Assembly: GCF_010211745.1 (NCBI RefSeq)
Contig: NZ_PDWQ01000003.1
Span: forward strand, 248,001-312,000
Reading direction: 5' to 3'
From: Pseudoxanthomonas kalamensis DSM 18571
Lineage (GTDB): Bacteria > Pseudomonadota > Gammaproteobacteria > Xanthomonadales > Xanthomonadaceae
Length of the DNA stretch: 64,000 nucleotides
Shown here: positions 11,835-21,094 of the stretch, in pieces
Numbering within the stretch: position 1 is the stretch's first letter
Layout of the letters: every line of letters begins with the position of its first letter
Program-made: the position numbers and the translations under genes
The notes under the pieces: model-generated
What the model was told of the DNA's origin: nothing
What the model saw: only the letters and a program-made list of their open reading frames with translations
The model's database searches: none

Positions 11835-12364
11835 TGCCGGTTCGCGCCAGACCCAATGCGCTGGTCTGGCTGCTGCTGTCGGCGGCAGTCATCGCCCTGG
11901 ACCAGTGGAGCAAGGCCTGGGTGCTGTCTTCGCTGCCGGAATTCACCCCGGTCGCGGTCATCGACGGATTCTGGAACTGGTACCGCACCTACAATACCGG
12001 CGCAGCGTTCAGCTTCCTCAGCGGCGCCGGCGGCTGGCAGACCTGGCTGTTCACCGCGCTCGCGGTCGGCGTCAGTGGCCTGTTGGGCTACTGGCTGTGG
12101 AAGCTGCCGCGCGGCGACTGGCGGCAGGCGCTGCCGTATTCGCTGGTGATCGGTGGTGCGCTCGGCAACGTCATCGACCGCCTGTTGCACGGCCACGTGA
12201 TCGACTTCATCCAGTGGTACTGGCGGGACCACTACTGGCCGGCCTTCAATCTGGCCGATTCGGCCATTGTTGCCGGCGCCATCGGCATCGCCTTGCTGGG
12301 TCTGACCGGCGGAGGCGGGAAGCGGGTGGAGAGAAACGAGGGACGAGTCGAGAGAAGCGAGTAA
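11834..12364 (+). CDS. lspA: Lipoprotein signal peptidase (signal peptidase II)
   Basis: A 176-residue inner-membrane aspartyl protease that removes signal peptides from diacylglyceryl-modified prolipoproteins. Four membrane segments are visible. The catalytic aspartates are D115 in GNVIDRLL and D142 in FNLADSAI. The start codon overlaps the ileS stop (TGATG). Odd feature: the last 13 residues, from R164 ([13 protein letters not shown]), are encoded inside the left arm of an inverted repeat that also occurs between rimM and trmD. The natural end of the protein was probably remodelled by repeat insertion; the tail is charged and outside the membrane core, so activity should be retained. Confidence 0.96.
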
Positions 12365-12400
12365 ACGCGCCACCCACTCGTTTCTCGTTCCTCTCCCCTC
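12324..12400 (+). repeat. Imperfect inverted repeat between lspA and ispH (GAGAGGAACGAG family)
   Basis: The left arm at 12324-12349 and the right arm at 12375-12400 pair over 26 bases with 20 matches. The unit is built from GGAGAGRAACGAG and GACGAGT words. The same words make up the larger inverted repeat at 20224-20341. The element overlaps the 3' end of lspA and ends 13 bases before the ispH start codon. It would form a hairpin in the operon mRNA. Confidence 0.75.
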
Positions 12401-12413
12401 TACACTGCTCCCC

Positions 12414-19711: not shown

Positions 19712-20224
19712 ATGAACGAGACCGGGCGCCGCATCCTGCTGGGCAGGATCGTCGGTGCCTTCGGCGTGCGCGGCCAAATCAAGCTGGAATCGTGGACCGA
19801 GCCGCGTGCGGCGATCTTCCGCTACCAGCCGTGGATCCTGCGCGACCCGGCTGGCCGCGAGCGTGAGCTGGATGGTGCGCGCGGCAAGGAATCGGGCAAG
19901 CACCTGATCGCCAATTTTCCCGGCGTCGAGGATCGCGACACGGTCGAAGCCCTGCGCGGCACCGAGGTCTGGGTGCCGCGTTCGGCGTTGCCGCCGCCGG
20001 GGCCGGACGAATACTACTGGGTCGATCTGGAAGGGCTGCGGGTGCTCAACGTGGACGGCACCGACTTCGGCAACGTGTCCCACCTGTTCTCCACCGGCGC
20101 CAACGAGGTGCTGGTGGCGCGCGGCGAACGCGAGCGCCTGATTCCGTTCGTGCAGCCCGAGTACGTCAAATCGGTCGATTTCGACGCCGGCGTGGTCACC
20201 GTGGACTGGGATCCTGAGTTCTAG
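19712..20224 (+). CDS. rimM: Ribosome maturation factor RimM
   Basis: A 170-residue protein that binds S19 and assists 30S head assembly. The N-terminal domain has [23 protein letters not shown], and the PRC-barrel domain has [15 protein letters not shown] and ending [23 protein letters not shown]-type sequence. The ATG at 19712 fits the family; the open frame further upstream is a shadow of rpsP. Its stop codon forms the first base of a long inverted repeat that fills the space to trmD. Confidence 0.96.
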
Positions 20225-20341
20225 GGGCGAGGAACGAGTGGAGAGGAACGAGGAGCGAGTGGGTTCCTGCCCGGAGCCACTTTTGCTTTAGTCTCACACT
20301 CGCTCCTATCCACTCGTTCCTCTCCACTAGCTCCTCGCCCC
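20224..20341 (+). repeat. Long inverted repeat filling the rimM-trmD junction
   Basis: The left arm starts at 20224 (last base of the rimM stop) and reads GGGGCGAGGAACGAGTGG and so on for about 38 bases. The right arm, 20297-20341, is its reverse complement with two substitutions and one 7-base insertion, and ends on the base just before the trmD ATG. The arms are built from GAGAGGAACGAG and GAGCGAGT words, as in the element at 12324-12400. In mRNA it would form a very stable hairpin inside a conserved ribosomal operon, and it leaves trmD without a Shine-Dalgarno. Confidence 0.85.
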
Positions 20342-21094
20342 ATGCGTATCGACGTCATCAGCCTGTTCCCCGAATTCGTCGCCCAGTGCGCCGGCTTTGG
20401 CGTGGTCGGGCGGGCGCAGGAGCGTGGCCTGCTGTCGCTGCATGGCTGGAATCCCCGCGACCATGCCCAAGGCGGTTATCGGCGGGTCGACGACAAGACC
20501 TTCGGTGGCGGGCCGGGCATGGTGATGATGATCGAGCCCTTGCAGGCCTGCCTGGCCCAGGCACGCGCCGCCGATTCCGCCCTCGCGCCGCTGATCTACC
20601 TGAGCCCGCAGGGGCGCCCGCTGGATCAGGCCCGGGTACGCGAACTGGCGGCGATGCCGCGGCTGATCCTGCTGTGCGGACGCTACGAAGGCGTGGACGA
20701 GCGCTTCGTCCGGGCCGAGGTGGACGAGGAAATCTCGATCGGCGACTACGTGCTGTCCGGTGGCGAACTGCCGGCGGCGGTGCTGGTCGATGCGTTGGCG
20801 CGGCTGCAGGACGGGGCGCTGAACGACGCCGAATCGGCGGCCCAGGACAGCTTCGAGGACGGCCTGCTGGACTGCCCGCACTACACCCACCCGGCCAGCC
20901 ACCCGCTGGGCGAGGTGCCGGCGGTGCTGCGCTCGGGCGACCATGCCGCCATCGCCCGCTGGCGGCGCCAGCAGGCCTTGGCCCGGACCTGGCGGCGGCG
21001 TCCGGACCTGCTGGAGCGGGCAGGGCTTTCAGAGCAGGATCGGGCCCTGCTGCAGGCCTGGCGGGACAAGCACGAAAACGGCAGCGAACCCTAG
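20342..21094 (+). CDS. trmD: tRNA (guanine-37-N1)-methyltransferase
   Basis: A 250-residue SPOUT methyltransferase making m1G37 in tRNAs reading CNN codons, which prevents +1 frameshifting. The start [12 protein letters not shown] is standard. Conserved parts are [18 protein letters not shown], the AdoMet-binding trefoil knot ([26 protein letters not shown]) and the C-terminal [22 protein letters not shown]. No ribosome-binding site precedes the ATG, since the inverted repeat abuts it; translation may depend on that structure or on coupling. Confidence 0.97.

Follow-up and report, generated by a model that had tools for sequence, protein, structure and literature searches.

The gap between rimM and trmD in the 64-kb window (the whole stretch of DNA analysed here) is filled by a long, near-perfect palindrome that is one copy of a dispersed repeat, shared with other gaps in the same genome. 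We think it probable that this repeat is a REPIN-like palindrome made of seven-base units (heptads), and that it sits between rimM and trmD as a tolerated passenger, the operon gap being permissive. A copy consists of a variable loop between two inverted arms, each about 38 nt long and built from 7-nt units in a set order; it would be a miniature repeat of the REPIN or MITE type whose copies would have spread genome-wide and persisted where they are harmless, mostly in gaps at gene ends. Spreading may have occurred through a hairpin-forming single strand handled by some agent, with heptads gained or lost by slippage and the words possibly homogenised within each genome.

The palindrome is 118 bases long (20224-20341). 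It starts on the G of the rimM stop codon (TAG, 20222-20224), and its final base, 20341, adjoins the trmD ATG at 20342; the initial annotation, which had placed the repeat between the last base of the rimM stop and the base before the trmD start, was exact on this point. Both flanking genes lie on the plus strand and were assigned from protein family models: rimM upstream (19712-20224; TIGR02273, 163.8 bits for a cut-off of 66.2) and trmD downstream (20342-21094; NF000648, 293.1 bits for a cut-off of 220). The genes recognised by eye around this pair are presumably rpsP and rplS. The 5′ arm (20224-20261, plus strand) consists of purine-rich 7-nt units with GAG at their start, and the 3′ arm (20297-20341, plus strand) is the reverse complement of such a heptad arm; the 35-nt loop that separates them (20262-20296) is, by eye, unlike the loops of other copies. 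When the arms were aligned, 36 of 38 positions were identical, with one additional 7-base insertion in the 3′ arm (20308-20314, plus strand, its placement being ambiguous by a few bases), just as had been described: about 38 paired bases, two changes and a 7-base insertion. The insertion corresponds to exactly one unit, and the arms of this copy differ in length by one heptad. The predicted RNA fold of positions 20215-20350 has an energy of -78.6 kcal/mol, whereas 200 dinucleotide-shuffled sequences average -44.58 kcal/mol (sd 3.97); the z score of -8.57 supports the earlier proposal that a strong hairpin would form upon transcription of the operon; this copy is presumably transcribed and strongly folded. 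An ungapped palindrome scan of the window (26-nt arms, at most 3 mismatches, an exact 9-base inner seed and a span of at most 135 nt) returned this site as its sole match. A search of Rfam gave 11 matches at E values up to 1, all far under the gathering scores and nine of them to microRNA models.

The BLASTN copy-number check suggested alongside the initial annotation was run, and showed that the element is indeed a repeat with copies elsewhere in the genome. Against its own genome (G000, a 3.03-Mb draft in 160 contigs) it gave 47 rows, a figure that includes both arms and both strands. In this genome, GAGGAACGAG was found 30 times vs. 5 times for its reversed control, and the two-heptad pattern GAGDRRHGAGDRRHGAG 74 times vs. 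3 for exact matches (129 vs. 48 with one mismatch allowed), the exact matches occupying at least 23 places. Among the matches listed, the GAG strand came first in all 12 clusters that had words on both strands. The window itself holds a second copy, in the lspA-ispH gap (12311-12411). The 5′ arm of this copy is translated as the C-terminal tail of LspA, and the lspA stop codon (TAA, 12362-12364) is supplied by its GAGTAAA word. The arm-encoded tail falls outside the TIGR00077 match (residues 11-155 of 176), and the other models end at residue 168 or before.

To describe the arms, we used a script that found 108 heptad clusters in loci of four genomes, some of them one-armed or consisting of a single word; it should be noted that the loci of G092, G156 and G282 had been chosen with a hairpin pattern that itself requires two arms in the GAG-first order. 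Clusters with at least three heptad words entered the copy alignment, and arms containing the anchor word entered the consensus. Aligned on the second unit, this reads approximately aaGCGAG-RARYGAG-YGRAGAG-RARYGAG-RARYGAG-WRAAAGC, and its unit order is fixed: it is identical in the genus of the window (G000 and G092) and in another genus, g39 (G282). The commonest units are GAGGAAC, GAGGAGT, GAGAAAC, GAGTGGA and GAGTAAC. The outer end of the consensus, aaGC(G)AG, is occasionally replaced by CTAG or GTAG, as judged by eye, and some copies contain tandem expansions. Word usage is strongly genome-specific (chi-square 294.5, 33 d.f., on counts inflated by the tandem arrays), and G156 has its own word set, with the anchor word present in few of its arms (7 rows). 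The loops vary between copies by eye, except for a recurrent AAAGC near the arm; those of G156 also hold other, recurring palindromes. At three G156 loci (L309, L310 and L313), a different short palindrome, TAGGAGCGGCTTCAGCCGCGA, lies inside the loop of the heptad palindrome, so that a second family of repeats is nested within the first.

The copies lie at gene ends. Wherever the neighbours of a copy were recognised in the own genome, by NCBIfam queries with whole proteins or 180-residue pieces (some scoring under the curated whole-protein cut-offs), they were housekeeping genes. Besides rimM/trmD and lspA/ispH, copies occupy the gaps between N-acetylornithine carbamoyltransferase and argG, infB and rbfA, rpsR and rplI, and recO and era; the ftsA/ftsZ and nrdA/nrdB gaps have one-armed or partial copies, and fmt, glyA, guaA and gltD each flank a copy on one side. 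With genes called by a small codon-usage script, whose starts are approximate, 44 of the 84 hairpin copies in four genomes could be classed by gene orientation and the other 40 could not; 29 of those classed were in codirectional, 11 in convergent and 4 in divergent gaps. At the one-armed copy in the nrdA-nrdB gap (L324, G000:C73:516700-519800), the predicted N-terminus of NrdB, PLTPHSSPLTPRLLD, is apparently encoded by pyrimidine-arm heptads.

We also compared the rimM-trmD junction across relatives, including those without the insert, as had been proposed initially. The comparison covered 30 junctions from relatives (19 from the genus, the own genome included, and 11 from the order) and 80 from named genomes. 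A GAG-type hairpin or its remains was present at 6 of the 19 same-genus junctions (the own genome, G002, G004, G014, G016 and G018) and a GAG-type element at 3 of the 80 named junctions, L121, L164 and L165 (Lysobacter sp. ISL-50); the other 13 and 77 junctions, respectively, are element-free. L121 is of the same species as G002, whose trmD is identical to that of Pseudoxanthomonas sangjuensis over the 690 bases compared; the genus of the window is accordingly the one to which P. sangjuensis belongs. At element-free junctions the two genes either overlap or nearly touch, or are separated by unrelated spacers, often of 60-100 nt. The idea that the repeat replaces the whole junction is loosely right. 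Seven-base arrays of other words occupy the junction at Xanthomonas loci and at L123, L163, L167 and L181, and L142 and L167 have other palindromes, putative GTAG-type REPs. The varied contents of the junction point to the rimM-trmD gap being a permissive landing place. The arrays at L167 and L181 are long; along the one at L167 the word drifts from TTCCGCC through TCCCGCC to ATTCCCG, as if one heptad word had been caught while changing into another.

The remark that trmD has no Shine-Dalgarno sequence held, but describes the usual state in the family: a core (AGGA, GGAG or GAGG at -18 to -4) precedes trmD at just 11 of 68 junctions, and several of these cores are part of the rimM end. None of the 6 junctions with three or more heptad words had a core vs. 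11 of the 62 others. Since trmD mostly lacks the sequence even where there is no element, the insert is not the cause of its absence.

The fate of the element at fixed sites was followed in two closely related species, G004 and G018. All 12 G004 elements could be traced into G018 by their left flanks, at 93-98% identity. At 11 of the 12 sites, G018 has a heptad-like block, variably decayed as judged by eye, with flanks 91-98% identical; at the twelfth, L345, it has no element and the right flank aligns poorly. Two sites were little changed (L343, 167 of 179 positions identical, and L344, 178 of 196, flank positions included), and others were largely rewritten. The ratio of TGAG to CGAG word endings was 49:21 in G004 vs. 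22:32 in G018 (Fisher p 0.0017, for words that are not independent of each other), L345 being omitted because its G018 partner has no element. In this pair of species, then, sites are conserved and words turn over. No recent insertion matched by an exact empty site came to light, and the alignments of G004 with G018 look like inheritance of the elements in place, not like jumping.

Concerted evolution of the two arms of a copy was not borne out in the own genome and was weakly apparent in three others. Among non-overlapping arms scoring at least 17, the same-copy arms of G000 had 23.14 of 33 columns identical vs. 23.29 for permuted partners (n=14). The corresponding values were 24.86 vs. 23.83 in G092 (n=21; 50 of 2000 permutations as high, p 0.025), 27.93 vs. 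26.03 in G156 (n=14; 6 of 2000, p 0.003) and 25.57 vs. 24.73 in G282 (n=30; 49 of 2000, p 0.025). In a cruder comparison, with arm spans taken from self-alignment, self scores were slightly higher than cross scores in all four genomes, and self was rarely the best partner. Pairing within a copy is thus due mainly to the likeness of every arm to a shared consensus. These data bear on the possibility that the palindromes are microsatellites that arose in situ, by seven-base slippage at gene ends and arm-to-arm copying through template switching at an imperfect palindrome, with no mobility involved. The strict 7-nt period, the one-heptad insertion in the rimM-trmD copy, the tandem expansions, the small self-pairing excess in three genomes and the conservation of 11 of the 12 sites are all consistent with such an origin. 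Slippage alone, however, does not explain why the same ordered arm recurs at sites that have nothing to do with each other and across genera, and the own genome is without self-concordance; we consider an origin in situ quite unlikely.

A second alternative, put forward in the initial annotation, is that the element is there to attenuate transcription, to be an RNase III site or to control TrmD/L19 output. The hairpin would then be kept to set TrmD/L19 levels, whether as a target of RNase III, as a stem that stabilises or as a barrier to translational coupling. We folded junctions of 45 to 260 nt among loci L061-L079 and L121-L169. Besides the very strong fold in the window and the recurrence of the element or its remains in the gap within the genus, 5 of the 8 distinct element-bearing junctions gave z scores below -4 (L061, -10.4; L073, -5.9; L075, -5.9; L164, -4.7; L165, -4.6), as would suit RNA-level control; L063 had a z of -2.8. 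However, the hairpin is weak or gone at L068 (z -1.9) and L072 (z +0.2), the junctions of the closest species pair, G004 and G018, whose trmD genes are 96.2% identical. The many junctions without the element, and the presence of an identical element type in many unrelated gaps, also argue against a purpose-built control. Nor was there a preference for G-U pairs on the sense strand of the 29 codirectional copies from four genomes, which had 57 G-U vs. 51 A-C mismatches (p 0.63; a copy needed at least 20 matched pairs to be included in the four-genome set, which removed 16 of 100). The rimM-trmD stems had 6 G-U vs. 20 A-C mismatches, the reverse of what selection for RNA pairing would give (raw counts without a significance test, L121 not being counted twice). 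The regulatory roles proposed for the element thus found no support in the sequence tests run, which give no sign of selection for a hairpin in the transcript; any effect on mRNA processing or trmD translation would be mild at most, and we regard retention for this purpose as unlikely. A review states that no information is available on regulation of the trmD operon (PMC10931766). That the hairpin is an intrinsic terminator or attenuator inside the operon is very improbable: there is one terminator-like match, in its apical part (20262-20278), but shuffled sequences average 1.2 such matches, no U-tract follows the long hairpin, and an unconditional stop would silence trmD and rplS, two genes that are presumably needed.

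A dispersed REPIN-like palindrome, our preferred reading, can be set against several known repeat systems. The element is REPIN-like in build, with no RAYT found, and its behaviour is nearest to that of the Xanthomonas heptamer repeats, without their G-tracts. The 2011 paper on REPINs is reportedly by Bertels and Rainey, and Di Nocera is said to be the first author of the 2013 paper on GTAG-tagged REPs. REPINs share with the element a pair of inverted, conserved arms, a spacer that is less conserved, a high copy number, an extragenic location and a single-strand hairpin (PMC3116915); the arms of the element, however, are about 38 nt of heptads and had no RAYT association that we could find. 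In REPINs, compensatory changes are said to be common (PMC3116915), whereas the same-copy arm concordance of the element is weak. GTAG-tagged REPs are likewise palindromic and uneven between species, and it is often from their ends that a neighbouring gene takes its TAG stop, as here (PMC3733652). Unlike them, the element has no constant GTAG terminus, a much longer stem and no repeat-flanked RAYT that was found. A classical MITE would have a conserved interior, a target-site duplication and a parent transposon with the same ends; the interior of the element is unconserved by eye, and the sites compared include no exact empty one that would show a MITE-type duplication.

The nearest published kind is the GGGAATC (GGGANTN) heptamer repeat of Xanthomonas (Rehm et al. 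2015), which has in common with the element a 7-nt unit period and an intergenic location near gene ends (PMC4692102). The units of the element are GAG-based, without the GGG tracts that make G-quadruplexes in the Xanthomonas repeats. A common origin of the two through the apical word GGGTAAAGCAAGAGC was considered and dropped, as this word is not a repeat: the single 15-base word tried matched 12 times, over 11 of 79 genomes, vs. 30 times for the reversed control. The intergenic tandem heptamers of PMC6344855 and the TAACTGA repeats of Beggiatoaceae (PMC4679880) are also intergenic, with a seven-base period and an unexplained function, as here; they are described as direct tandem arrays, however, whereas the element is an inverted pair of ordered units. 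No description of a GAG-type heptad palindrome was found in the titles, abstract openings and passages of the open-licence literature searched.

REPINs and GTAG REPs are both linked to RAYT genes (PMC3116915, PMC3733652), which made a RAYT the natural candidate for a carrier. No link was found. The RAYT domain Y1_Tnp (PF01797) had no match in the element-bearing genomes G000 (the 160-contig draft), G033 and G176, and was equally common without the element (9 of 12 element-bearing vs. 11 of 13 element-free genomes). None of the 30 Y1_Tnp loci examined (of 53 matches) had an exact pair of heptads in the surrounding 1.5 kb or so; 13 of these loci came from element-bearing genomes, where 28 matches exist. 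Plasmid and phage records gave no match to the element at E 0.001, and neither these searches nor that for Y1_Tnp revealed a transposase or other carrier.

A broader proposal, which we advance tentatively and hold to be possible rather than probable, is that heptad palindromes form a class of bacterial dispersed repeats independent of RAYTs and of G-quadruplexes, in which sites are inherited while the words are converted, throughout the genome, to the dialect of the species. If this were true, an active homogenising or re-copying process would act on hairpins at gene ends. The existence of palindromic heptads without G-tracts, with a similar placement at gene ends and sites kept while words change, suggests that the formation of quadruplexes does not account for such repeats in general. 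The case also calls for caution: before a strong hairpin between operon genes is called a regulator, one should ask whether it is a genome-wide repeat.

Finally, the occurrence of the repeat is patchy between species. An exact two-heptad match was present in 100 of 297 genomes of the family, with background not subtracted. Among 18 same-genus genomes, two had 433 and 457 matches, the own genome 74, and eight had none. The gapped hairpin pattern gave 39 matches in G000, 232 in G092, 142 in G186, 128 in G282, 39 in G156, 31 in G004 and 7 in G018; these are overlapping matches rather than copies, and the reversed controls gave 0 or 1 per genome. In a sample of the phylum, this pattern matched in 10 of 398 genomes, and rose above background (1-2 scattered matches per genome in 11 genomes for the reversed control) only in G000 (39), G058 of the same family (4) and G536 (9). 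The nine matches in G536 (L393), which belongs to another gammaproteobacterial family, include some with GAGTGAG or GCGTGAG words. In G149, the reversed heptad pattern had 241+105 matches vs. 22+6 for the forward pattern, which suggests that this genome carries another abundant seven-base repeat, with a different word.
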